A stretch of DNA of 64,000 bases from Bacteroidota bacterium (GTDB lineage Bacteria > Bacteroidota > Ignavibacteria > UBA10030 > UBA6906), in assembly GCA_019637975.1 (NCBI GenBank), contig JAHBUR010000011.1, positions 62,001-126,000 of the forward strand. Reading direction: 5' to 3'. Position 1 is the first letter of the stretch. The number at the start of each line of letters is the position of its first letter. Shown one piece after another: positions 4,328-33,365 of the stretch. Under the pieces are notes generated by a model that saw only the letters and a program-made list of their open reading frames with translations, did no database searches and had not been told where the DNA came from. A program made the translations under genes and the position numbers.

Positions 4328-4753
4328 TCACTTGGGCGGATCGTGAGGCAGTTCCTTTCCCTGCTTAACAATGTCTACTGCTTGTTTGAATCTTCTGTGA
4401 AATGTCGTCTCGGTAAGCCCCGTTGCAATGTTCGTTTGCATTTTGCGTTTCGTAACACAGGTGACCTTGACGCTGTTGTTGCCCTGAGGCTCGACCCACA
4501 CCGCGATCACCGAGCCGGCGGAGATCAAATTCTGGCCGATGGTGGTGACCATGTAATTCTCATCCTTGTGTTGCTCGATTGTTTCGGCATCCTCCCACCG
4601 CAACACCCGCAGCGCAACTTTCCATCCCTGCTCGAAATCAACAGGATACGTGACAACCGTGCCGTCGTCCTTTGCCTTGATGGCGTCCGAAATGGACGCG
4701 CAGGAGACGAGGATCAACGACGGTAAAAGGATGCTGTACAGAAATGTTTTCAT
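4328..4753 (-). CDS. Small lipoprotein of unknown function
   Basis: 141 aa. Residues 1-18 are a lipoprotein signal with the lipobox LVSC, so Cys18 would be lipidated. The mature part has a strand-rich pattern (VVTYPVDFEQGWKVALRVLR, later SVIAVWVEP and VKVTCVTKR) similar to small DUF3568-like envelope lipoproteins, but I cannot assign the family firmly. AAAGGA precedes the ATG with good spacing. It is followed directly by a strong terminator and is probably monocistronic. Confidence 0.72.
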   Translation of the reverse strand: MKTFLYSILLPSLILVSCASISDAIKAKDDGTVVTYPVDFEQGWKVALRVLRWEDAETIEQHKDENYMVTTIGQNLISAGSVIAVWVEPQGNNSVKVTCVTKRKMQTNIATGLTETTFHRRFKQAVDIVKQGKELPHDPPK

Positions 4754-4876
4754 AGTGATATTCCTTTATGTTGTTGGTGATCTGGGGGCTCTCAATTTCT
4801 TTTGGCCGCGTTGGCGCGGGCAAGCAAGACTTACTTACTCCATCCAACCGGTACCGGCACTTCCCGGGCTTTTTGT

Positions 4877-5737
4877 CTAACACCCCCTGGAGTAGAACCA
4901 TGCCGTTACCTTGTGCCCTGTTCCCCAAGCCGGAATCCATCCCGTCGCGACCACGCCCGGCATGCCGCCCTCGCACGGACTTTCTGCCAATATCTCCACG
5001 CGGAACCAGAGTGTTGTCTCGTCGCGTCGCGCTTCCAGCACATTGGCCGGCGTCTCGCGGCCGCGCGTGATAGGCACGGGTCTCGCCGCAACTCCGATGC
5101 TTGGCGCGTCCCGGAGTTGGCCATCCCACGCCTCAGTGAGATAGTTGAGCCGGTTGGGGATCAACTGCTCCAAGTGCATGAAGCGTCCGACTGATTGCGC
5201 CCGGAGCCATGCCCGTCCGCCGTCGGGGCGGCCGACGAGGTACCACTCATAGTACGATCCATAAACGGTAATGCCCGATTCCTCGTACTCGTATTCCTTT
5301 GTCTCGTAGTGCGGCAGCGAATCGGGCGGCGCCGTCACAAGAGCGAGCAAGGAATCGGGAGTGCCTTTGGCAGGCACAGCGGGCGGAATCGTGACACCGT
5401 TCGAGTCGCGCTCAGGAAGTGCGGCGATTGCCTCTTCGTGTGCCCGCTGCGTGGTGACGGTTGAAGTCCGGATCAGGAAGAAGATTGACGCAACCCCGGT
5501 TGCCATAGCGAAAACTGTCGCAACGGTTAACGGTTTGGTTTGCAGCCTGCGGCCCAGGAGAATCCCGCCGGCCAATCCGATAAGCGCGCCGGCAATGCCA
5601 TACACCGCCACTGTTGCGCCACCGGCGAGGCCGTCGCCCGACGAGACGACTAACTTGGCGGCAATCAGGCCCCCGGCGATAAACCCGATGGTCATCATGC
5701 CGGCTGAAAGAAGGAGAATGAGCAATGTACGTTTCAT
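4877..5737 (-). CDS. Membrane protein with C-terminal extracytoplasmic domain, unknown function
   Basis: 286 aa. Three hydrophobic segments at roughly residues 5-27, 38-62 and 70-92 are Gly/Ala rich. A Pro-rich linker follows, then a ~150-residue soluble domain with many aromatic residues (YGSYYEWYLVGRP, GRAWLRAQ) suggestive of an SH3-like wall- or ligand-binding fold, which is a guess. A GAGG site precedes the ATG. The spacer to 4753 holds a perfect 10-bp palindrome CCGGTACCGG (4848-4857) but no clear T-run terminator. No family recognised. Confidence 0.68.
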   Translation of the reverse strand: MKRTLLILLLSAGMMTIGFIAGGLIAAKLVVSSGDGLAGGATVAVYGIAGALIGLAGGILLGRRLQTKPLTVATVFAMATGVASIFFLIRTSTVTTQRAHEEAIAALPERDSNGVTIPPAVPAKGTPDSLLALVTAPPDSLPHYETKEYEYEESGITVYGSYYEWYLVGRPDGGRAWLRAQSVGRFMHLEQLIPNRLNYLTEAWDGQLRDAPSIGVAARPVPITRGRETPANVLEARRDETTLWFRVEILAESPCEGGMPGVVATGWIPAWGTGHKVTAWFYSRGC

Positions 5738-5840
5738 GAATACCTCGCCGCGAGTTGATTAATCGGTGATTGAAACCTTGTGAGGCTTCCGTGTGAAGGT
5801 CCATCTTCCATCTGTTGAAGATCCGTCTCCGGCGGCACGT

Positions 5841-6344
5841 CTATTCGATCCCAAGTTCTGTCCTGCGAACCCAACGAGGAGCCGACCCGATTGCTCTACT
5901 CAAAAGTAAATTCAATTGAGCTGCATGATGTTGAACGTGACGCATATTGTACAACAGCACTTCAGACACAGATAAGTCAAGCCAATCAAAGCCGCACCGC
6001 CTTTTCGCTTGATCTTCGGTCATTGAGAGAATGACGGAACGGCATTTCGCCCGACCATGTGTTAGATATTCTTTGAGTTGTTGTTTTGTGTAGATGCGAT
6101 CGGGGAGCAACCCTCGTTCATCCAACTCATCCAGCGTAAAGGGTGGCGGCGGAAGAAATCCTTTATCAGTTTCTGCCAAATAGAGATCCAAATAGAACAC
6201 CGAATGAAAAGCGATATACCAGAACTCATGAAATCCGATTTTCTTGCCCCAGAGGGATTCGGGGCAGGCATCAATTGCATTCTCCAACATATCAATCGCA
6301 GCACCAAACTGGCGCCAAATGATCTCTTTTATTTCTGCATTCAC
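5841..6344 (-). CDS. DinB-family protein
   Basis: 167 aa starting at a GTG with CGGAGA upstream. DinB/YfiT proteins are four-helix bundles that bind one metal ion through three His residues; here the candidates are the His in YIAFHSVFY (~residue 47) and the HVQHHAAQLN cluster (~residues 136-140). Family members act as thiol-dependent transferases or have no known role. It is the last of a run of seven minus-strand accessory genes and is preceded by one copy of a 40-bp dispersed repeat (6374-6413). A second, unrelated-looking DinB protein is at 15123-15620. Confidence 0.83.
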   Translation of the reverse strand: MNAEIKEIIWRQFGAAIDMLENAIDACPESLWGKKIGFHEFWYIAFHSVFYLDLYLAETDKGFLPPPPFTLDELDERGLLPDRIYTKQQLKEYLTHGRAKCRSVILSMTEDQAKRRCGFDWLDLSVSEVLLYNMRHVQHHAAQLNLLLSRAIGSAPRWVRRTELGIE

Positions 6345-6373
6345 CAGAATTTCTCCGTATCACTTTTTGCCGC

Positions 6374-6413
6374 TCGTCGCGTTGACCACGACATACTGAA
6401 TGCGTCAATGAAC
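6374..6413. repeat. 40-bp dispersed repeat, copy A
   Basis: Matches 8382-8421 at 36 of 40 positions by eye. The first 19 and the last 11 bases are identical; the four differences lie in the middle. It contains a small stem TCGT/ACGA and lies 30 bp upstream of the DinB gene start. Neither copy is coding. Confidence 0.8.
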
Positions 6414-6438
6414 TGTTGTTGACCAATACCACATATTG

Positions 6439-6457
6439 TGAAGTACTGCTCACTTCA
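6439..6457. other. Small hairpin in the spacer upstream of dinB-like gene
   Basis: TGAAGT and ACTTCA form a 6-bp stem with a 7-nt loop in the 205-bp spacer between the DUF2442 gene and the DinB gene. There is no T run, so it is not an obvious terminator; its role is unknown. Confidence 0.4.
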
Positions 6458-6549
6458 CCGCTGGAGGATTCTATCTTCTTTCGGACCCGCCGTGGGAGAC
6501 CTCTTCCTCTTGAGGAGGTGAGCCTATTGCGGAGGGAGGTTTTCGTAAA

Positions 6550-6792
6550 CTAATTTGCGGCGAGCAGACTCTTTACAGAAATATCCTCGTCCACATCTTC
6601 CCAATGAATGCCGATTCCCCTTCCAATGATACGCCAGTTCTTTCGCTGTCGTTCGTTTGCATCACGTAACCGGGGAAACCATTCCAACGGAGCAGAGACT
6701 TCCCTGCCATCCGCCAGAACGACTTTCAGCGAGTCAGATGTAAAAGACAAATCTATGACTCGTGGTTCAACCTTTACTTCTAAAGTACTCAT
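6550..6792 (-). CDS. DUF2442 domain protein, putative antitoxin-like partner
   Basis: 80 aa from the ATG at 6792, where the family alignment starts; an upstream in-frame start at 6807 is less likely. It shows the family hallmarks VVLADGREVSAPLEWFPRL and RIIGRGIGIHWEDVDEDISV. DUF2442 proteins are typically encoded right after DUF4160 genes, as here with a 26-bp overlap, in pairs widely suspected to be toxin-antitoxin or regulatory modules. That role is known only from gene association, so the antitoxin label is inference. Confidence 0.88.
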   Translation of the reverse strand: MSTLEVKVEPRVIDLSFTSDSLKVVLADGREVSAPLEWFPRLRDANERQRKNWRIIGRGIGIHWEDVDEDISVKSLLAAN

Positions 6793-7009
6793 TCCATCTC
6801 TCCTCAAATAGAGTCCTGTTTTCCTGAACCAATGTTCTCAGTTCTGAAATCTCGCCACTACGAAATCCCTCCGATTCTGCCAACTGAATCGGATTCAACC
6901 AGAATTTTGCGTACCGTTCTGCCTGCTCAACATGTATGTGTGAAGGCTCGTCCCCTTCACGGCTGAAGAAGAAGAACCTGTACCCTTTTATCCGTAGTAT
7001 TGTTGGCAC
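6767..7009 (-). CDS. DUF4160 domain protein
   Basis: 80 aa with a GTG start at 7009. The family signature is complete: MPTILRIKGYRFFFFSREGD followed by EPSHIHVEQAERYAKFWL, including the HIHV motif. It is the upstream partner of the DUF2442 gene and overlaps it. The start codon follows the likely -10 box (TATATT at 7020-7015) by only 5 nt, so the transcript may be leaderless. A palindrome overlaps this promoter (7010-7036), as expected of an autoregulated pair. Confidence 0.88.
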   Translation of the reverse strand: MPTILRIKGYRFFFFSREGDEPSHIHVEQAERYAKFWLNPIQLAESEGFRSGEISELRTLVQENRTLFEERWNEYFRSKG

Positions 7010-7036
7010 GTTCCAATATACAATTTTGTATGGAAC
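7010..7036 (-). promoter_or_regulatory. Palindromic operator overlapping DUF4160-DUF2442 promoter
   Basis: Outer arms GTTCCA and TGGAAC and inner arms TACAA and TTGTA form an interrupted palindrome of 27 bp. The likely -10 TATATT lies inside it; a poor -35 TTCCCA is 17 bp upstream. Binding of one of the two gene products here would give autoregulation; that is inference. Confidence 0.55.
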
Positions 7037-7102
7037 TTGGGAAGTGGAGATGCAGAACAGGTTAACGACCGACCATTCCGCCCGCGGATCTTCAACATAG
7101 GG

Positions 7103-7720
7103 TCAGGTTGCCGCCATTGCCGTTTCCTGCGGGAATCCCTTGAATCTCCCAACGACTGTGACAATGGCATATATGGAAAACGCAATTGAGAGTGTCAGGA
7201 ATGTCCATGTAGTGAAATCACCTGCGGTGAGCGCAATGTGAAACAGGTCTCCTTGAAAGCCGGTAACATATCCGATGGTTTCACATACCAAGTCAAAAGC
7301 AGGACGCAAGCATAGCACCATGAAGAGAAATCCGATGAGAAAAGCATTGCTGGAGAGTTTCCGCTGAAGAATGTACACACCAACTGCTATGCTCACAAGA
7401 TCGAGAACATACGGTGAGGCCGTCATAATCAACCGGGTCCATTCGCTGGTGAAGCCCTCCGATTTGATCCACGCAACAGCAATCTCTCCAACCCAAAACC
7501 TCGGGATGAGTTTGACTTCGACAATCCGACCGCCAACAATGTATGCGCCCAACAGATGGCTCAATTCATGTATAGGCGCATAGACGAAATACCACAGTAT
7601 CGGAATGGTGGACATACACGCCACCATCGTTTGTTGTTTCCAGGTTCCCCTGAGATAAAGCACAAGAAGAGGAGCAACCACGGTGACGAGTATTTCGAAG
7701 GTGATCAGGAGATGGTTCAT
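7103..7720 (-). CDS. Integral membrane HELSH protein, putative zinc metalloprotease-like
   Basis: 205 aa with about five to six hydrophobic helices. PIHELSHLLGAY at residues ~49-60, inside or next to the second helix, is an HEXXH zinc-binding motif like that of M50 site-2 or M48-like membrane proteases. I see no convincing third ligand of the NPDG type, so it may be an inactive or divergent relative. Stop codon TGA lies in the box ACCTGACCC, one base from the cassette-end box seen at 8457 and 9157. It follows the 7749-8273 gene by 28 nt and probably shares its transcript. Confidence 0.65.
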   Translation of the reverse strand: MNHLLITFEILVTVVAPLLVLYLRGTWKQQTMVACMSTIPILWYFVYAPIHELSHLLGAYIVGGRIVEVKLIPRFWVGEIAVAWIKSEGFTSEWTRLIMTASPYVLDLVSIAVGVYILQRKLSSNAFLIGFLFMVLCLRPAFDLVCETIGYVTGFQGDLFHIALTAGDFTTWTFLTLSIAFSIYAIVTVVGRFKGFPQETAMAAT

Positions 7721-7748
7721 GAGCGGGACTTGTTCCCTGTCTACGGCA

Positions 7749-8273
7749 TTAGCCTGCGCCTTTAAGGTGATTGTTCATAAGATAAGCAATGATTTTGCAG
7801 CGCTCAAAGGGAAGCCTCTCCCCGAAGATAATTTGATTCGATGCTCGTACTGTGGAATCAACCTCGCTTAGTTGGAGAACAACCGAACCAAGGGGTTCCT
7901 CATTCCGTCTTGGGAAAACGCCAACGACTTTGTCTATTTCGACAGAAGCAACCTTAAATCGCATCCCCAACAGAGAGACGCCAATGGTCAGCAGAGGATA
8001 GCGTAGGGCAATAGATTGACGCGCTATTGAGAAATACGTCGCGATCAAAAGCGTGGCAATCAAAAGCACTGCAAATGGCGTGACCTTCCCGACAAATTGG
8101 GAGGTGTCTTGATTCTCGTTGAGCACCAGGGCAATTCCGGCTACAAGCAAGAAGGAGCGCAACAAGATCAAAACGGACCAACTGAGCGAGTAATCTGCTT
8201 CAATAACAAATCCATCAGGGAGCGCTTTGAATCTGATTGCGTCTTCATCGAGTTCTTTGCGTGAAATATCCAT
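7749..8273 (-). CDS. Small membrane protein, unknown (PH-like C-terminal part possible)
   Basis: 174 aa from the ATG at 8273; the open frame continues upstream but the extension lies in the structured spacer. Two membrane helices occur near residues 32-48 and 63-82. The C-terminal cytosolic part (RYPLLTIGVSLLGMRFKVASVEIDKVVGV) has the look of bacterial PH-like domains found in two-helix membrane proteins, which is only a suggestion. A GTTAGGT box lies 10 nt before the start codon. No family firmly recognised. Confidence 0.62.
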   Translation of the reverse strand: MDISRKELDEDAIRFKALPDGFVIEADYSLSWSVLILLRSFLLVAGIALVLNENQDTSQFVGKVTPFAVLLIATLLIATYFSIARQSIALRYPLLTIGVSLLGMRFKVASVEIDKVVGVFPRRNEEPLGSVVLQLSEVDSTVRASNQIIFGERLPFERCKIIAYLMNNHLKGAG

Positions 8274-8285
8274 CTGTAAAGCACA

Positions 8286-8458
8286 ACCTAACGATAGGCA
8301 ACTACGTGGAGAGAGAGACTGCCGATTGTTTGTACTGCACGCAACTGTGTTTGACACCTCCATCGAGAGCTGCTGCCCCGGTCGTCGCGTTGACCACGAC
8401 TTATTGATTACGTCAATGAACAGATCTGCGGCCAATTCCGTGCAGCGAAGGGTTAGGC
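8286..8458 (-). repeat. attC-like spacer between GNAT and membrane-protein genes
   Basis: Read on the minus strand, this 173-bp segment begins with GCCTAAC, whose TAA is the stop codon of the GNAT gene, and ends with GTTAGGT ten nt before the next start. These match the RYYYAAC and GTTRRRY boxes of integron attC sites. Inner arms CTGCACG(C/G)AA (8335-8344 and 8436-8445) form a 10-bp inverted repeat with one mismatch. It also holds copy B of the 40-bp repeat. It is longer than most attC sites and its L boxes are not convincing, so it could be a degenerate site or coincidence. Confidence 0.42.
8382..8421. repeat. 40-bp dispersed repeat, copy B
   Basis: Second copy of the element at 6374-6413 (36/40 identical, same orientation). 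It contains a 5-bp stem GTCGT/ACGAC and lies inside the attC-like spacer, 109 bp upstream of the membrane-protein gene. Confidence 0.8.
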
Positions 8459-8974
8459 CGCATCGGATTCTCCAACGGGCAGCCACATATGCACCTTGGA
8501 CCTGAAGCCCTCCGGTGTAGCGATGGCCATTGGCTCGACGCCGAACTGCCGGAAGCCATAACGCTCATAAAGACCGACCGCCGGCGCATTGCCTTCCGTG
8601 ACGGTGAGTGTGACCACGCGAACCCCGGGACGAGACCCGGCTGCGGTTAGAGCGGCTTGAACAAGCATGGCTCCGGCACCTTGGCCGCGACTGGACTCGT
8701 GAACGAACATGCCGATGAGCTTGGCCTTGTGCCGTGTCTTGGGCTTGAGCTCGAACTCGACCGTTACGGTACCAACGAGTAAATTCTCGTGGAAGGCACC
8801 GAAGGCTTGGCTTTGGCCGCTTGGATCAGTAATACGATTGAGCCACCAAGAGTCCGGTTCCGCGGCGCGCTCTTCTGCGGTGGAAGTGAAAGCATCCGGG
8901 GCAGTGGCGTACGCGTGAAGCATCAACTCGCGGTAGCGCGGCAAATCCGATGCGATGAGCCGTGCAACGCGCAT
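8453..8974 (-). CDS. GNAT family N-acetyltransferase
   Basis: 173 aa, full GNAT length. Motif A, the acetyl-CoA pyrophosphate loop, is RGQGAGAML near residues 95-103, preceded by the strand LIGMFVHE. The later segment NAPAVGLYERYGFRQFG is the conserved C-terminal motif B with the helix and strand typical of RimI-like enzymes. Substrate unknown. The start codon lies 8 nt after a GTCAGGC box and the stop codon TAA sits inside GCCTAACCC. The gene is flanked on both sides by structured ~175-bp spacers, as a mobile cassette would be. Confidence 0.9.
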   Translation of the reverse strand: MRVARLIASDLPRYRELMLHAYATAPDAFTSTAEERAAEPDSWWLNRITDPSGQSQAFGAFHENLLVGTVTVEFELKPKTRHKAKLIGMFVHESSRGQGAGAMLVQAALTAAGSRPGVRVVTLTVTEGNAPAVGLYERYGFRQFGVEPMAIATPEGFRSKVHMWLPVGESDAA

Positions 8975-8982
8975 GGGGTGCG

Positions 8983-9158
8983 GCCTGACTGTTGATTATC
9001 CTGCAACCCGTTCCCGCAGCATTTCACGCTCTTACAGCGTGTTGTCTTGCAGGGATATTCCGTGCAGTGCGGAATATCTGTTACCTGATTTCATTCAGAA
9101 ATCGTTGGCGAAGATCCGCCTCAAGCGGGACTTTTTCCTTTTTTAAAAAGGGTTAGGT
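8983..9158 (-). repeat. Hairpin-dense attC-like spacer between HEPN-like and GNAT genes
   Basis: On the minus strand it starts with ACCTAAC, containing the HEPN-like gene's TAA stop, and ends with GTCAGGC before the GNAT start. Between these are at least six inverted repeats: CCTGCAA/TTGCAGG (9000-9006, 9047-9053) enclosing CACGCT/AGCGTG (9025-9041); an 8-bp perfect stem ATATTCCG/CGGAATAT (9055-9077); GATTTC/GAAATC (9087-9103); GGCG/CGCC (9107-9120); CCGC/GCGG (9116-9128). It carries no gene that I can support. Identity as an attC site is inference. Confidence 0.45.
9116..9142 (+). terminator. Possible plus-strand terminator inside spacer
   Basis: CCGC-CTCAA-GCGG followed by GACTTTTT resembles a weak rho-independent terminator on the plus strand. 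No plus-strand gene precedes it, so it may protect the island from antisense reading or be accidental. Confidence 0.3.
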
Positions 9159-9866
9159 ACCTCGCATCATGGTGTTTTTTTCGTAGACAAGCCTATCCCC
9201 TTCATACACCTTCACGGCGCTAATGGGTACGCGAACCCGATGGATCAGACCGTCAACGTACGGTTGATAGTCGGTCCCGCTTGGAAAAACCTCGGAGAGC
9301 CGTTCACTGCCCATGTGAACGTAGAAGAGCCTGATAACTTTAGGGTCATCCTCAGAGGCTCCCTGATGTATTATGGTGAGGTTGGCCCCACCCCGTTTGC
9401 CAGTGTCCCAGCCTCGATCGTCTGCATCTTGAATCCAAGCGGGAGGAGGCTGACCGACATGTTGATAGATGGCTTCCACAGCTTTACGGACGACGTCGAT
9501 TGCCTCATCGGCGATCTTGGCTTCAGGAAACAAATTCTGTTCGGATAGGAATCGGTGCACGTATCCCTTACGCTGCTTTTGTAAAGCGATAACTAGTTGC
9601 CAGATGCCGGTGCCCCATTCAAGAGGTTGGAATCCTTGTCTATTGATTGCTGTCTCCAAATTCTTTCGGAACCTGTAAGAGATCTTGGGTTCATTGAGAG
9701 CGTTCTGACAAGCAATCTCAAGAACAGTCCAGGCAGTTGCTACCGTCCACCGCACATATGCTCCCCGATCCCATTTATTGTTGGCTTGATGGGATAGAGC
9801 ACAAGCATGCAGGGCATCCGTCCACAGATGGTAGTGTGGATTCTCAACAATCTTTGGTTGATTCAT
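9153..9866 (-). CDS. HEPN-like protein of unknown function
   Basis: 237 aa from the ATG at 9866; the open frame extends upstream but past a GTTAGGC box, which argues for this start. The N-terminal ~140 residues are helical with an RxxxxH motif (RKGYVHR near residues 100-106), the arrangement of HEPN ribonuclease or nucleotidyl-handling domains. The C-terminal part is strand-rich (NLTIIHQGA, VIRLFYVHMGSE, VYEGDRLVYEK) and unrecognised. HEPN proteins often act in toxin-antitoxin or defence modules, but no partner nucleotidyltransferase is encoded next to it, so the role is open. Confidence 0.6.
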   Translation of the reverse strand: MNQPKIVENPHYHLWTDALHACALSHQANNKWDRGAYVRWTVATAWTVLEIACQNALNEPKISYRFRKNLETAINRQGFQPLEWGTGIWQLVIALQKQRKGYVHRFLSEQNLFPEAKIADEAIDVVRKAVEAIYQHVGQPPPAWIQDADDRGWDTGKRGGANLTIIHQGASEDDPKVIRLFYVHMGSERLSEVFPSGTDYQPYVDGLIHRVRVPISAVKVYEGDRLVYEKNTMMRGT

Positions 9867-9883
9867 TCTCTCGCTCTTTGAGC

Positions 9884-9890
9884 GCCTAAC
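9884..9890 (-). other. GTTAGGC box upstream of HEPN-like gene
   Basis: On the minus strand GTTAGGC lies 17 nt before the start of the HEPN-like gene and follows GGTGCTTAATCATA, similar to the L'-R' half of integron attC sites. Nearby is an imperfect palindrome CCGCATA/TATGCTGCGG with a two-base bulge. No matching RYYYAAC half was found further upstream. Confidence 0.35.
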
Positions 9891-10003
9891 TATGATTAAG
9901 CACCACACCGCAGCATATCCACGTGTATGCGGCAATACTCCACGCAAAGTAAAAATCCCACGATGCAGAAGCAAGGAGCCGTGTCCCTACGAAACAGGTA
10001 GTA

Positions 10004-10024
10004 GGGGCACGCCCCGGCGTGTCC
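10004..10024. repeat. REP-like GC-rich hairpin
   Basis: GGGGCACGCC and GGCGTGTCC form a near-perfect stem with a 2-nt loop. Short GC-rich palindromes with GTAGGGGC-type arms are common interspersed elements in environmental bacteria. Only one clear copy is in this window. It marks the right end of the accessory island, between 9866 and 10076, where I see no gene. Confidence 0.5.
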
Positions 10025-10075
10025 TGCTTGAGTAGACCACCCCAACTCTTTCATGCAGCCTCGTCCCATCATCAT

Positions 10076-11248
10076 CTACCAGTTGCCCGTCGCGCCTCCG
10101 CCGCCGAATTCTCCTCCTCCGCTTTCTTTCTTGACTGCCTGCGGCGCCGGACCGAGTGTTTGCGAGATGAGGAGTCCTTCGACGTTCACATCTTTCAGTT
10201 TCTCTTTGAGAATGTTCCGGTGCGTGAAGCCGTTCCGGTCCGTCTTCAGATATCGAATGGAGAGTGCCGCAATCACAAACAGCGCGGCTCCCGCAATCGT
10301 CAGCGCCGTTTCGGGAGGGACGACGGCATAGTAATACCGGAATGTCAACACGGAGGCAACGGCAGCAAGCAAACCCGTTCGCAGCAACAGATGGTCACGA
10401 ATCATCAGTCCCCGCACAACGTACACAACCGGCGTCAGAATGGTGAGTGCGTAGAAAAGGAATGCGAGCGGGATGTCTTTGCCCTCGGGGATCGGTGCGC
10501 CCATCAGTATCTCATTTCCTTCCCGCACGACGAAGTAGTTGCCGCCGCAATAGAATGCGACGAGCGCGAGAAGCTCGACCACGAAGAGACATTCTTTCCA
10601 CGGCTCCAAAGATTTTCGCTTTCCGTATTTTTGCACGAGAACATACGTCAGCGCCGCGGCAGCCATTGCAACGAAGGGAAGGACGGCTTTGGCAACCGGG
10701 CCCCCTTCCGCAAGCGGGACGAGAAGAACGGCGAGCGCGCAGAGATACGCCGCTGCTGTTACCAAACGATCTGCATAACGCATTGCGCCAAACATCAGGA
10801 AGGGGAGGGCAATGATCCAGGGAACCACGCCGGGCCGAGGCGCGTAGGTTGCGTCCGTGTACAGCAACACAACGCCGCCGATGGTAAGGCCCAGCGCGGC
10901 GTACAGCAATGCCTCTTCGATGCCGGCTTCGTAGAACTTCCGTTGCTTGACAACAGTCTCCATCGCCACGAACGAAAGAACTCCCGTCACGACAAAGAAG
11001 AATGCAAACGCCGAGTCCTTCGTTGGCGAGACGGCAAGGAAGATGATTCCGTACACTCCGAGAAGGGCAATACACGTGAACACAAACAGAACAATCCTGA
11101 TGAAGAGTGTAGGCGTGTAAAGCGGAGTCGTGTACGCCGTCTTAATCGCATCATATTGTGCGGTGGAGATGATGCCGCTTGAAAGCCATTGCTTTACCTC
11201 ACGGACAACCCGCAGCTTGCGGACCCACTCCATGTTGTGAATGATCAT
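10076..11248 (-). CDS. Polytopic membrane protein, DUF2157-like, with Gly-rich tail
   Basis: 390 aa from the ATG at 11248, which overlaps the upstream gene's stop by ATGA; the longer open frame to 11704 lies inside that gene and is rejected. The N-terminal ~45 residues are soluble and helical (VREVKQWLSSGIISTAQYDAIK), the DUF2157-type head, followed by roughly nine to ten membrane helices. The C-terminus ends in a Gly-rich tail GGGEFGGGGATGNW, similar to tails of TPM-domain membrane proteins. Function unknown. Translationally coupled to the next gene upstream, so the two probably form one complex. Confidence 0.78.
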   Translation of the reverse strand: MIIHNMEWVRKLRVVREVKQWLSSGIISTAQYDAIKTAYTTPLYTPTLFIRIVLFVFTCIALLGVYGIIFLAVSPTKDSAFAFFFVVTGVLSFVAMETVVKQRKFYEAGIEEALLYAALGLTIGGVVLLYTDATYAPRPGVVPWIIALPFLMFGAMRYADRLVTAAAYLCALAVLLVPLAEGGPVAKAVLPFVAMAAAALTYVLVQKYGKRKSLEPWKECLFVVELLALVAFYCGGNYFVVREGNEILMGAPIPEGKDIPLAFLFYALTILTPVVYVVRGLMIRDHLLLRTGLLAAVASVLTFRYYYAVVPPETALTIAGAALFVIAALSIRYLKTDRNGFTHRNILKEKLKDVNVEGLLISQTLGPAPQAVKKESGGGEFGGGGATGNW

Positions 11249-28648: not shown

Positions 28649-31600
28649 CTACTTCGTCAGCACCAACTTACTCACCTTGTTCAACCGCACACCTCCGCTC
28701 ATATCCGTTGCCGTGAACCTCGCAAAGTACACGCCGCTCGCCACAGCGGATGCATCCCACATTGCAGAGTGATACCCTTCGGACTTCGGGCCGCTTACGA
28801 GTTCCGTGACCTTCCGGCCCAAGAGATCGTAAACCACTAACGACACTTGCGCCGCCTCAGGGAGATCGTACTTGATTGTGGTAGAGGGATTGAACGGGTT
28901 GGGATAGTTCGGATGAACGGCAAACACCTCAGGCAAACCGTTTGGTGCGGTTGCATGAGCCAATTGCTTTGCCAATGATGCTGCCTCATCCACCACATAC
29001 CAGCGTTCAAGATCGATGCGGCCTAACTGTGATACCCCGACAGGCTGAAGCACAAGTTTGAGTTGTCGGTTGCCGTGATTGAGCGCGGTCTGGAACGTCA
29101 CAAGTGTGTCGTCGCCGACGTGGAAGGTCCGGAGATTCTGTACAACATTCCCCGTTGCGGCATCGCGCAAGGTCATGCGGATGTTGATGCCGTTCGGGAG
29201 TTGACCTTTTGCCGTAAACAATGTCGTCAGCTTCATCATCCCGGTTCCCGCGAATGGCTCCGTGGAAAGCACATTCTCGAACTGCGAGAGAGTGATACGC
29301 GCTGTGTCGTTCATCTCCGCAAACCCGAGCCGCATTTCGTTCGCTTGAGCATCCAGCACGGCAATGTGCAGCGAGCCGTTGCGAAACATCAATCTGCCGC
29401 CGCGCCCTTCCGAGGTCAACGGCATGCTGTCCCCTTCCTCGTTTTCGTCCGTCATGGTGATACCTTGGCGCTGAATGGCGTACGGGGCTGTTGTGCCGCG
29501 CGAGACGAGATACTCAAACGAGTTCGCCAAATAGCCTGCGCTGAGTGTCGGGTCAACGCCTGCGCCCCTCGAAGCAACCGAACCCCAAGCGCTGGGACGG
29601 CCGCGCACGGTGTACATCAACGGCGTTTCTGTTGTCTGCCACGCTATTGTGGCCTTCAGTGTCCCGATGCTTCCGGTAACGCTTGGTTTTACATAGCTTG
29701 CCGTTGTGTAGTACGGCACCCACGTTGCCGGATAGCTCCACGTTTGCGTGTTGCGCTGCGAGTACTGTATTACGCCGGTGACAAACTCCCAGTAGTAGGC
29801 CTGCCACGTTACGCCGATAGTATCGCCATCAAGCCCCGCATTCACCAAGGCAATACACGGCGCGTTGAGATATACCGATTCATCACCTTCAAGAACTGTT
29901 TGCGGTATTCCTGCTTGAGGCCAGCCGGGGTATGCGATAACCGGCCTATACATCACATTGTTGTATTCGATATACGCAAGATGCCACGTGTCAGGTGTAT
30001 TGGCATAAGGCGAAAGTGAGAACGCGGTAATACCGCTCCCGAGATTTGTTATGCCTGAGGTCGAGTTGTCAGGCATCCACATGATGCACCGGAGTTCATC
30101 CAAATCACAATCATACCACGTGACAAGTGTGTAAAACGCTGTCGTGTACTTTTCACTCCCTTCCCGTGCAATACCGAGAACAGGTCGCGCAGACTCACCC
30201 TGCCCCAGCCACAGTGAGCCGAGTTGCTCGGGGCCATAGGTAATGTTTCCGTTGAGATCAAGTTCACAGACATAGATTCCGTGTTCGCTTTCATCCGTTG
30301 CATAAATTTCATACGCGATACGAATTCTGTGCTCTTGTGCATCGGGCATTTCGCCGTCTCCAAACACACCGCCGCCTCCAGTGGCCACCTCGGGAACATA
30401 GATAATAGAGGGGTCACGATACCGGCCCTGTTCAGGATAGCCTTCAAATATTGGGCTTACCAATTTCTCCGGAGCCCACGATGTGCCACTGAAGTCCAGC
30501 GAGCGTGTGTACCAGATGAGACCCGCCGATTGATATACCTTGTGCCAGTAGCCGAGATTGTCGCGCGTGATTTTTCGCTGGTTATTGAATGCCACGGCTT
30601 CAGGCGAGGAGGAGGCGAGGTGGAGCTTGTAGTTCGCTGTTGCCATAGCGCCGGAACTCGTAAAAACGACACCGGTTTGGGCAGCATCGGCGTTTTGATA
30701 TTGCACGCTCGAACCCTCCCAGTTCCGAAAATATGCTGAGTAGTTGTTCCCGTTGATGGTAAACGTGTTCGGGTTCGGGGCTCCCACGGAGTAGTAGGGC
30801 TTCAGTGGATCTTGCGGATCCGGGACTTGGTTCAAGAACACGCCGCGGTATTCGGAAGTTGTCGAAATCGTCCACGGTGAGCTGTTCGTTTTGAACGGTG
30901 CCGACATACCCTGACTTCTATTCTCGCCACCGTACCCAACTACATCTTCCAACCACGGGTCTTTGAACTGGATGGTCCCCGCCGCAGATGGGACATCCCA
31001 AAGTTCGGCTTTGATCGTTGCCTCACAGAATCCTCGATGGTGAAACGTGAAGCTATTTTCCTGTGGGTGGGGATAGATCGGATAAGCAGCATAATTCGCA
31101 TATCGAATCTGGTCAAGAACATTTGCCGTTACTCCTCTATGGAATTTTTCGCCCAAGCCCGCAATGTTCGGTTTGATCTTGAGTTCTTCGCCGTGACTCA
31201 TGGGGATAGAACTACCCGGTGATGCCCAATCACCCGATGTTAAAGACCCCCACTTGTAGCCAGACCATCGCCCAATGGTGTCTGCAGAAAAGCCCGCAAG
31301 AGGTGTCCCGTCCTCCTTGCGGGCGTACAGCGACGCAAATTTGGGATATCCGTACTTGGCTGTTGTAACGGTTGATGAGGTGATGGTGTCGCCATCAACA
31401 ATAATCCTGACATACACATACGTTAAGTCATTGATGTCATTGTCTATCCACATTTTCCGTCCCTCCATGCCTGACCCGCTATGTATAAGAATCCAATTTC
31501 CAACACCATCGACTTGTTCATACCATCGGTAGTCGTAACTATTGTAATTAGTTTGCAGAATGCCATCAAGATAGAATTGAGCCGAATGCCATGCGGCCCA

Positions 31601-31741
31601 CTCATTCTCGCTCCGCCAGTAGATGTCATCGTGAATGACGCATGCCTCGTAGCCGACCCCCGTGATGTTACAGGGTACTTCTTGGGCAACCGCGCCGACG
31701 CAAGCGAAGATCAATAAGACTGATACGATAATAGTTTTCAT
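28649..31741 (-). CDS. T9SS-exported large protein with C-terminal sorting domain
   Basis: 1030 aa from the ATG at 31741, preceded by AAAGGAGA; an in-frame upstream start at 31768 is less likely. Signal peptide MKTIIVSVLLIFACVGAVAQ. The central ~800 residues are strand- and aromatic-rich with propeller-like repeats (SGLxx, YSPxx and WxxTTxTPLMYT stretches), no catalytic motif seen. The last ~85 residues form the type A T9SS sorting domain: YPNPFNPSTT, VYDLLGRKVTELV, GYHSAMWDASAVASGVYFAR and a basic end KLVLTK. The protein is therefore expected on the cell surface or released. It also has a complex leader (31789-31946). Confidence 0.9.
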   Translation of the reverse strand: MKTIIVSVLLIFACVGAVAQEVPCNITGVGYEACVIHDDIYWRSENEWAAWHSAQFYLDGILQTNYNSYDYRWYEQVDGVGNWILIHSGSGMEGRKMWIDNDINDLTYVYVRIIVDGDTITSSTVTTAKYGYPKFASLYARKEDGTPLAGFSADTIGRWSGYKWGSLTSGDWASPGSSIPMSHGEELKIKPNIAGLGEKFHRGVTANVLDQIRYANYAAYPIYPHPQENSFTFHHRGFCEATIKAELWDVPSAAGTIQFKDPWLEDVVGYGGENRSQGMSAPFKTNSSPWTISTTSEYRGVFLNQVPDPQDPLKPYYSVGAPNPNTFTINGNNYSAYFRNWEGSSVQYQNADAAQTGVVFTSSGAMATANYKLHLASSSPEAVAFNNQRKITRDNLGYWHKVYQSAGLIWYTRSLDFSGTSWAPEKLVSPIFEGYPEQGRYRDPSIIYVPEVATGGGGVFGDGEMPDAQEHRIRIAYEIYATDESEHGIYVCELDLNGNITYGPEQLGSLWLGQGESARPVLGIAREGSEKYTTAFYTLVTWYDCDLDELRCIMWMPDNSTSGITNLGSGITAFSLSPYANTPDTWHLAYIEYNNVMYRPVIAYPGWPQAGIPQTVLEGDESVYLNAPCIALVNAGLDGDTIGVTWQAYYWEFVTGVIQYSQRNTQTWSYPATWVPYYTTASYVKPSVTGSIGTLKATIAWQTTETPLMYTVRGRPSAWGSVASRGAGVDPTLSAGYLANSFEYLVSRGTTAPYAIQRQGITMTDENEEGDSMPLTSEGRGGRLMFRNGSLHIAVLDAQANEMRLGFAEMNDTARITLSQFENVLSTEPFAGTGMMKLTTLFTAKGQLPNGINIRMTLRDAATGNVVQNLRTFHVGDDTLVTFQTALNHGNRQLKLVLQPVGVSQLGRIDLERWYVVDEAASLAKQLAHATAPNGLPEVFAVHPNYPNPFNPSTTIKYDLPEAAQVSLVVYDLLGRKVTELVSGPKSEGYHSAMWDASAVASGVYFARFTATDMSGGVRLNKVSKLVLTK

Positions 31742-31788
31742 GAGAGAAATCTCCTTTTTCGTCGTCAATTGAACTGCATTGCAGAGAA

Positions 31789-31830
31789 CCGGTGCTTCGA
31801 GGAGCCGTCATCCTTGACACCTTGCACCGG
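31789..31830 (-). other. Structured leader of T9SS gene
   Basis: CCGGTGC and GCACCGG pair over a 28-nt interior containing further partial complementarity (TGTCA/TGACG). It lies about 50-90 nt upstream of the ATG in the mRNA leader. Function unknown; a regulatory stem or mRNA stabiliser is possible. Confidence 0.4.
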
Positions 31831-31913
31831 AATGTTTGCGCATCAAAAGGCATTTGTTCTTCGCATGTCCCTTTTGATTCTTAGTTTGCTGTTCATTAGA
31901 TTAACAGAGGCAG

Positions 31914-31946
31914 ATAAAAAGGCGTACGCTGACGCCTTTGGCGTCA
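31914..31946 (-). terminator. Overlapping hairpins with T run, possible terminator or attenuator
   Basis: On the minus strand TGACGCC-AAA-GGCGTCA (31946-31930) forms a tight 7-bp hairpin. Its right arm also pairs in a second hairpin GGCGT-CAGCGT-ACGCC (31936-31921) directly followed by TTTTT. Only one of the two can form at a time. The lipoprotein gene ends 90 nt upstream, so this is probably its terminator; an attenuator acting on the T9SS gene is possible. Confidence 0.45.
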
Positions 31947-32036
31947 CGCAGAGCACAGCCAATTTATATGCCCTTTCTGCTGCGGGCGGCGCTGCAACGT
32001 CGCCCGTAGTTATATGAATTTCATCATCATGCGATA

Positions 32037-33365
32037 TCACCGCCTTCCCATTATGATGAGCGCTCGATCAGAAAAGAATCCGCTCACCGTATACCCAACC
32101 GCAACCACCATGTCCTGGGACACTGCCACCGATTCAAAATAGTAACTTGATGGAATCTCTGTGGCCATTCTCCAGCTCACACCGTTGAAGTGAGCCAGTC
32201 TACCATGCCAGCCTACAGCAACAATATTGTTATCCGTGCTTCCGCGAATCCTCCTGACAGAGACCGATGGGGGTACTCCTTCCATCTGGTGCCAGGATGG
32301 ATGTCTATACCGCCAGATGCCCACGCCCGAAACGTAGGTTCTGAACCTGTTCACTGTCCAGACACTCCCGATAGAGAGTGTCGAATACCAAGAGAGTGTA
32401 TCACGCGCACCCGCAGGCGAAAGAGAGAGAAGTCGAACGTCATTGGATGTTCCGCCGACTGCAAATACCACCGCATTCCCATTCAATGGGTTGGTGAACC
32501 CCCATACGTCAACCAAGTTTCCCGTCGTCCCGCTCTCCAAGCGCCGCCACGTGCCGGAAGGACTTCGGATTGCGATTCCACCTCCATTACCAACCGCATA
32601 GAGCTCTCCAGTTGATGAATTGCCCCATAGCTTGTTGATTGACACCGGCGTGCATGTCGGCGCGCTCTGGCTCCCTCCATTCCAGCGAACAACTTGCGAC
32701 CCATCCATTCCGATCCAAATATCTGTCGGGCTGAACGCAAAGATCGATTTTGTCGGATACGAACCCGTCCCCGATTGGCCGCAAAAGGTGTAGAATTGTA
32801 TTCTCATCAACTGCCACTCCCTTCCATTCCACTTCACCAAGTTGTACGCATTGGGGTCCCAATTTCCCAAGCTATCCCGCTTGTAAATTTCGCCAACCGC
32901 ATACACCAACGTATCGTTGATAATGGCCACATCGTACAGCACCGAGGAACTGCCATCTCCCAATAGCACCGGCGGATCAAAAAGCCAGGCATGAGATGTG
33001 GTGTCCATCGTCGTCACCTGCGCGCTTGCGCTGGTTTCTATCACGGTGGAGTTGTCGTTGAGGCGTTGCAGTTGGTAGGTGTATGCACGGTTGGGGAGTA
33101 AACCCTCGTCAATAACCAGAGAGTCAGAGGTCAGAAGTCGGAGGTCAGAAACACGTTGGCCATCGCGCAGCAGGCGCACGGTGGCGGGGAGTTGCGTTGT
33201 TGTTGGCTTCAGCCAGGCTTCGGTGCAGCTTGCGTCAACAGCAGTGAGCGAGAGCGTCGGCTCGGGCACAACGGGCGGCTCCTTCTTGCACCCCTCGGCA
33301 GCAAGTAAGCCTAACACTATGGGAAAGAAACAGAGAATGAATGCACGTAGATTCTTCATCTTCAC
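32037..33365 (-). CDS. Propeller-type lipoprotein
   Basis: 442 aa. Lipoprotein signal with AAEGC lipobox (Cys26). A fibronectin-III-like domain (residues ~35-115: TLSLTAVDASCTEAWLKP, AYTYQLQRL) is followed by a ~300-residue beta-propeller-like region with repeats such as VYAVGE, DIWIGMDG, LYAVGNGG and VFAVGGTSNDV. Probably a surface or periplasmic binding protein; no catalytic motif. It has a strong upstream promoter, a long leader and an 8-bp x5 tandem repeat just before its ribosome binding site (AGAGGTGA). Confidence 0.85.
   Translation of the reverse strand: MKMKNLRAFILCFFPIVLGLLAAEGCKKEPPVVPEPTLSLTAVDASCTEAWLKPTTTQLPATVRLLRDGQRVSDLRLLTSDSLVIDEGLLPNRAYTYQLQRLNDNSTVIETSASAQVTTMDTTSHAWLFDPPVLLGDGSSSVLYDVAIINDTLVYAVGEIYKRDSLGNWDPNAYNLVKWNGREWQLMRIQFYTFCGQSGTGSYPTKSIFAFSPTDIWIGMDGSQVVRWNGGSQSAPTCTPVSINKLWGNSSTGELYAVGNGGGIAIRSPSGTWRRLESGTTGNLVDVWGFTNPLNGNAVVFAVGGTSNDVRLLSLSPAGARDTLSWYSTLSIGSVWTVNRFRTYVSGVGIWRYRHPSWHQMEGVPPSVSVRRIRGSTDNNIVAVGWHGRLAHFNGVSWRMATEIPSSYYFESVAVSQDMVVAVGYTVSGFFSDRALIIMGRR

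Follow-up and report, generated by a model that had tools for sequence, protein, structure and literature searches.

An integrase-less gene block in an Ignavibacteria genome best read as a fossil integron

We analysed a 64,000-nt stretch of DNA (the window, G000:C11:62001-126000 in our numbering) from a Bacteroidota bacterium of the Ignavibacteria (GTDB UBA10030; UBA6906; assembly GCA_019637975.1, contig JAHBUR010000011.1; 4.25 Mb in 68 contigs), and in it a block of eight genes on the minus strand, at about 4785-10075, with both ends approximate. This block is very probably what is left of an integron whose integrase gene was lost or became separated from it. The best reading is of a fossil integron, that is, a degraded cluster of attC sites lacking integron-integrase (CALIN) whose array still includes an attI remnant, and not of a working array. 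An earlier note on the same DNA had proposed former gene cassettes, some now fused or degenerate, in a non-integron context. The cassette origin is supported by an attI-like boundary, an attI-homologous spacer, a GNAT gene that is a cassette elsewhere, the absence of the block from a congener and an integron integrase (IntI) encoded in the same genome; the non-integron context does not hold, with attI remnants inside the array and an intI gene on contig C38.

attI-type sequence and the insertion site

Relatives have their insertion points upstream of intI at a common motif, close to CAGTCTAATCATA followed by GTTAG. A matrix built from seven attI sites, all from order-mates and none from this genome, ranked the boundary in front of the first gene, which encodes a 237-amino-acid (aa) protein, first of the 127,964 positions scored in the window, at 15.8 bits (runner-up 12.5). 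This boundary (9884-9910, minus strand) reads GTGCTTAATCATA followed by GTTAGGC, with the crossover G at 9890, and its TAATCATA plus GTTAG is identical to the attI of relative G058 and to that of contig C8 of order-mate G030. One-mismatch copies of GGTTGCAGSATAATCA found in more distant relatives were mostly coding or unrelated and were set aside. A second attI-type stretch precedes the GNAT gene (8978-9095, minus strand, ending in GGTTGCAGGATAATCAACA followed by GTCAGGCCGCAC) and is 76% identical over 119 columns (E 4e-20) to the sequence that immediately precedes intI, on its 5′ side, in G001, a member of the same genus (L035:12739-12857). The homology includes a promoter-like stretch and reaches the GTYAGG box and slightly past. 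The matrix passes over the second site, where, just as at the G001 site, GTC stands in for GTT and there is an additional base; its putative attI character follows from homology to the presumed G001 attI. Judged by sequence only, both 9890 and 8978-9095 thus qualify as candidate attI sites. Searches of plasmids with the attI segment and with an interior element described below gave nothing meaningful.

attC sites carry an R″ box (RYYYAAC) and an R′ box (GTTRRRY), and the stop codon often lies within the first. The gap between the 237-aa gene and GNAT (spacer B, 8983-9158) had been taken for such a pair; since its GNAT-proximal two thirds are attI-homologous, its two boxes do not delimit one attC, and the GTCAGGC partner would be of attI type. 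The fold of spacer B (z = -4.7) was rejected as a sign of an attC, its energy coming from several local hairpins of attI-like and terminator-like type and not from one attC stem. The order attI, open reading frame (ORF), attI remnant, GNAT is best read as an attI remnant standing in place of an attC, and resembles the delta-attI-type cassettes described for integrons of classes 1 and 2, which are ordered attI-ORF-deltaattI (PMC12901181). Such cassettes are defined by an attI remnant that replaces the attC behind an ORF and that IntI recombines. As in those, a piece of attI occupies the place between two genes that an attC would be expected to fill; unlike them, the block would be a divergent chromosomal integron, with about 118 bp of attI homology and an R″-like box kept before the segment, known here from sequence alone. 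It may represent a natural delta-attI-like arrangement outside mobile integrons.

A TGTTACCTGWTTTCGTTT-type sequence lies upstream of G001 intI (L035:12729-12760) and, in the same genome, ahead of a sigma-factor-like gene and of one more small gene (the loci carrying such sequences are, besides L035, L052 and L054 on G001:C24 and L048 on G000:C3); it is possibly a common promoter that also serves intI.

The whole block is an insertion relative to G001 (4785-10075, minus strand). There, the homologues of the flanking genes (the gene at 10076, 70% identical at the aa level, and the gene at 4328-4753) adjoin, with 40 bp between stop and start (L022), and the same interval in the window holds about 5.3 kb and eight genes, including a 286-aa gene at 4877-5737. 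An insertion in the G000 lineage is more likely than a deletion in G001, because GNAT is foreign. Relatives of the GNAT gene (8453-8974, minus strand; PF00583, 2.5e-17) come nearly all from Burkholderiales, mostly at 57-77% aa identity, and several are bounded by attC ends: a classic attC end directly precedes one (L076, ...GCCGCTTAACTCTACGTTAGGC), GTTAGGCCGCA precedes and GCCTAACCCCTCGCTCAAGCGG follows another (L077), and a third is followed by GCGGCCTAACCCTTCG, the same tail as that of the window GNAT (L063). The same gene therefore occurs as an attC cassette elsewhere, and this lineage seems to have received cassettes from a pool of Burkholderiales type.

Gene-end boxes and attC remnants

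All genes at 5841-9866 lie on the minus strand, and three of them stop within RCCTRACCC boxes, as the earlier note had described: ACCTAAC (ACCTAACCC, 9152-9158, R″-like) covers the stop of the 237-aa gene, GCCTAAC (GCCTAACCC, 8452-8458, R″) that of GNAT and ACCTGAC (ACCTGACCC, 7102-7108, R″-like) that of an HExxH protein. GTYAGGY boxes precede three starts, at 17 nt (GTTAGGC, 9884-9890, 237-aa gene), 8 nt (GTCAGGC, 8983-8989, GNAT) and 12 nt (the R′-like GTTAGGT, 8286-8292, membrane-protein gene), the last having been given as 10 nt. An RCCTRAC box covers the stop codon in 3 of 7 block genes; among non-overlapping ORFs picked mechanically from elsewhere in the genome, it does so in about 2 of 81 (Fisher p = 0.003, in a post hoc test). 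The boxes are pairable across both the GNAT/membrane-protein gap, spacer A (GCCTAAC/GTTAGGT), and spacer B (ACCTAAC/GTCAGGC), and the box-to-box spans of 173 bp (A) and 176 bp (B) are those previously reported. They had been thought too long for attC, but almost all attC of relatives span 144-197 bp (a site that contains runs of N comes out at 80 bp). Of the picture of seven genes with boxes at their ends, the boxes stand; the overlapping DUF4160 and DUF2442 genes carry one at neither end, and the 286-aa gene belongs to the block as an eighth.

Behind GNAT lies a decayed attC (8321-8458, minus strand), recognized by GCGGCCTAACCCTTCG and by arm pairing. Five nt inward of the intact R″ (8452-8458), an L″-like arm at 8433-8446 pairs at 13 of 14 positions with 8334-8347, a match equalled by 23 of 1000 shuffles; on the same measure, real attC of relatives give 2 to 21 of 1000. 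The R′ expected behind this arm pair is gone, and GNAT probably lost its own R′ despite the GTTAGGT across spacer A. The interior of the site is shared: one copy of the element (8377-8439, model R1) lies in spacer A and another, with eroded boxes, in spacer D, the DUF2442/DinB gap (6369-6431; 70 bits), both on the minus strand and 80% identical over 62 bp (8378-8439). Model R1 found four strong copies in the genome (A, D, C20:70811 and C42:28582) and no further one, and at all four positions the element directly follows a gene. Viral contigs sharing a 17-nt core of the element proved to be unrelated coding matches.

Could the block still be a functional CALIN, with attC of an unfamiliar type that the IntI of the genome can use? 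The R boxes that pair across spacer A and the one strong L-arm pair at attC-like spacing would suit such a reading, which we nevertheless hold to be very unlikely, given the lost R′ of the GNAT attC, the boxless spacer D, the shuffled level of spacer A and the lack of L pairing in the box-adjacent arms of A or B. In an attC, the L″ and L′ arms also pair, with an extrahelical base and unpaired spacers. Directly next to the boxes, L pairing did not exceed that of shuffles (1235 of 2000 for A, 1941 of 2000 for B). Rfam at gathering and permissive thresholds returned nothing, and an R- plus L-box scan of the whole window gave one marginal chance match, outside the region. The L boxes are lost or displaced and no intact attC was found, so that the block falls short of the formal CALIN definition of at least two detectable attC sites without intI.

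Several observations weigh against the interpretation of the block as an integron remnant. No intI gene lies in the window, and tblastn found no IntI relic in the block. The whole-site fold of spacer A is no better than that of shuffles (z = +0.7). A covariance model (R2) built from ten attC of relatives, which recovers untrained attC at 57-106 bits, gave a best score of 6.0 bits (E 0.3) in 4500-10500 with filters off and no attC; because R2 is clade-specific, having also missed the classic attC in L076, this null rules out intact attC of the relatives' type and not all attC. Several block genes lack boxes; for the 237-aa and 174-aa proteins no relatives are known, and only the boxes mark their genes as cassettes. 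Position and motif suggest the attI role of the G001 segment, and the recurrence of the attI-like motif at a second locus, on C20, is limited to 16 identical bases. Some of these points, namely the missing intact attC and the genes without boxes, together with a repeat at 10001-10030 resembling repetitive extragenic palindromes (REP), would also fit an ordinary genomic island placed by illegitimate recombination, with coincidental boxes and repeats. We regard that origin as highly improbable: the top attI motif falls exactly at a gene boundary, attI homology is present, GNAT is attested as a cassette and the four-copy element always follows genes.

Integrases, other loci and the origin of the array

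The earlier note was right that the window holds no intI, but the genome has one. A full-length integron integrase is encoded at G000:C38:31569-32510 (TIGR02249, 467 bits; cut-off 265). The genome has no other full IntI, and this one, in the interval 31569-32673 (L012:7480-8674), stops 163 bp short of the end of the contig. On its 5′ side it adjoins a long non-cassette gene, so an array, if any, may sit 3′ in an inverted arrangement. After the intI stop comes a perfect hairpin, GCGCGTGTTAT...ATAACACGCGC. The protein is 49% identical to G001 IntI, and its 5′ region is unlike the 8978-9095 segment. IntI above the cut-off was found in 13 of the 60 genomes searched, this one included, and G030 (L038), G058 (L039) and G013 (L040) have intI with adjoining arrays. 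These complete sedentary integrons share with the block the attI motif, the type of cassette and attC of 144-197 bp; unlike the block, which has no intI adjacent to attI and array, they carry intI beside the array and attC that R2 detects at 57-171 bits. G030 also has, on C8 (L059, 64000-68500; 1525-4501), a truncated intI, an attI motif, a beta-lactamase-family gene, an attC (60.6 bits) and a DinB cassette, which make up a second, decayed integron in an order-mate, parallel to the block; its second cassette is a distant homologue, about 30% identical, of the DinB gene in the window.

The two further copies of the interior element mark two additional integrase-less cassette-like loci in this genome. 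On C20 (L110:7480-8900), a 411-aa gene of no known family has GGTTGCAGGATAATCA upstream, stops in GCCTAACCC and is followed by the element; on C42 (L111:8740-9750), GTTAGGC lies ahead of a DUF5677-type gene and the element behind it. Among 41 genomes, GGTTGCAGGATAATCA occurs without mismatch only at the window locus, at C20 and at the G001 attI (with C at the eighth-position G/C choice). In G030:C7 (182356, L115), a gene for a protein that starts with MRKVFLFNMISLDGF has GATTGCAGGATAATCAA immediately ahead of its start codon, a placement as at C20, with no R box seen.

These scattered loci bear on a different origin, in which the C38 IntI inserted cassettes singly at attI-like secondary sites (attG-like) here, at C20 and at C42, and no local intI ever existed. 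The interior element is common to three cassette-like loci, a GTTAGGC box or GGTTGCAGGATAATCA lies upstream at two of them, and IntI insertion at secondary sites is documented (PMC10127599). The 119-column homology to G001, however, far exceeds a minimal insertion motif and includes the promoter-like stretch, and the C38 enzyme is only 49% identical to that of G001 and has a 5′ region unlike the segment. We consider this origin unlikely and favour a former local IntI as the source of the cassettes. A genus-wide version, in which the integrase places cassettes at dispersed attI-like sites, attI segments travel with cassettes as functional downstream sites, making natural delta-attI cassettes of chromosomal integrons, and one intI serves the integrase-less loci on C11, C20 and C42, seems quite doubtful to us.

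For an integron remnant, we infer the following order of events. A local IntI would have recombined attI with attC (attI x attC) and so placed cassettes at attI, of which attI-type sequence persists at 9890 and 8978-9095, and the presumed cassettes (237-aa, GNAT, membrane, HExxH, DUF4160/DUF2442 and DinB) would have been read in one direction, GNAT having been acquired from the Burkholderiales-type pool. After loss of the integrase, the attC would have eroded, so that GNAT retains the interior together with R″ and a single pair of L arms, the DUF2442/DinB spacer retains the interior alone, and the remaining junctions are fused. The array would now recombine poorly or no longer, so that it would have no present function as a recombination platform, and its genes would persist, simply inherited, as ordinary chromosomal genes.

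CALIN are a class of IntegronFinder and have been proposed to be degraded integrons (PMC9024848). The block is like them in its co-directional small unrelated genes, boxes at gene ends and lack of a nearby integrase, and unlike them in having fewer than two detectable attC, eroded R and L boxes and attI-type sequence. Comparative evidence (attI homology, cassette relatives and an empty congener site) can thus identify integrase-less remnants where attC models fail, and such cassette remnants are probably under-counted.

Gene content and neighbouring features

No profile from Pfam or other profile searches matched the 237-aa protein (9153-9866), the presumed first cassette by its position, and none supports the former label HEPN-like; 295 other genomes from the phylum gave no relative, and its AlphaFold model is unusable (pLDDT 42). 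The 174-aa membrane protein (7749-8273) belongs to no Pfam family, and no relative turned up in the 390 further genomes of its class that were searched. The 205-aa HExxH membrane protein (7103-7720) shows a weak match to the DUF3267 zincins (PF11667, E 0.0018, below cut-off). The DUF4160 and DUF2442 pair (6550-7009; PF13711, 7e-16, and PF10387, 7e-20) occurs on plasmids too, and a DinB-superfamily gene (DinB_2) follows at 5841-6344 (PF12867, 3e-9). The 286-aa gene at 4877-5737 has no family and is unmatched in G001 and G002. All of these genes are on the minus strand, and defence-system profiles matched none.

C-terminal signals of the type IX secretion system (T9SS) type (NPFNPTT...) point to an Ignavibacteria-like member of the Bacteroidota group. 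REP-like palindromes, GTAGGGGCACGCCCCGGCGTGTCC and GTAGGGACACGGCTCCGCCGTGTCC, occur at 9985-10030 in the window, one just beyond the attI-like boundary, and near 7503 in L111.

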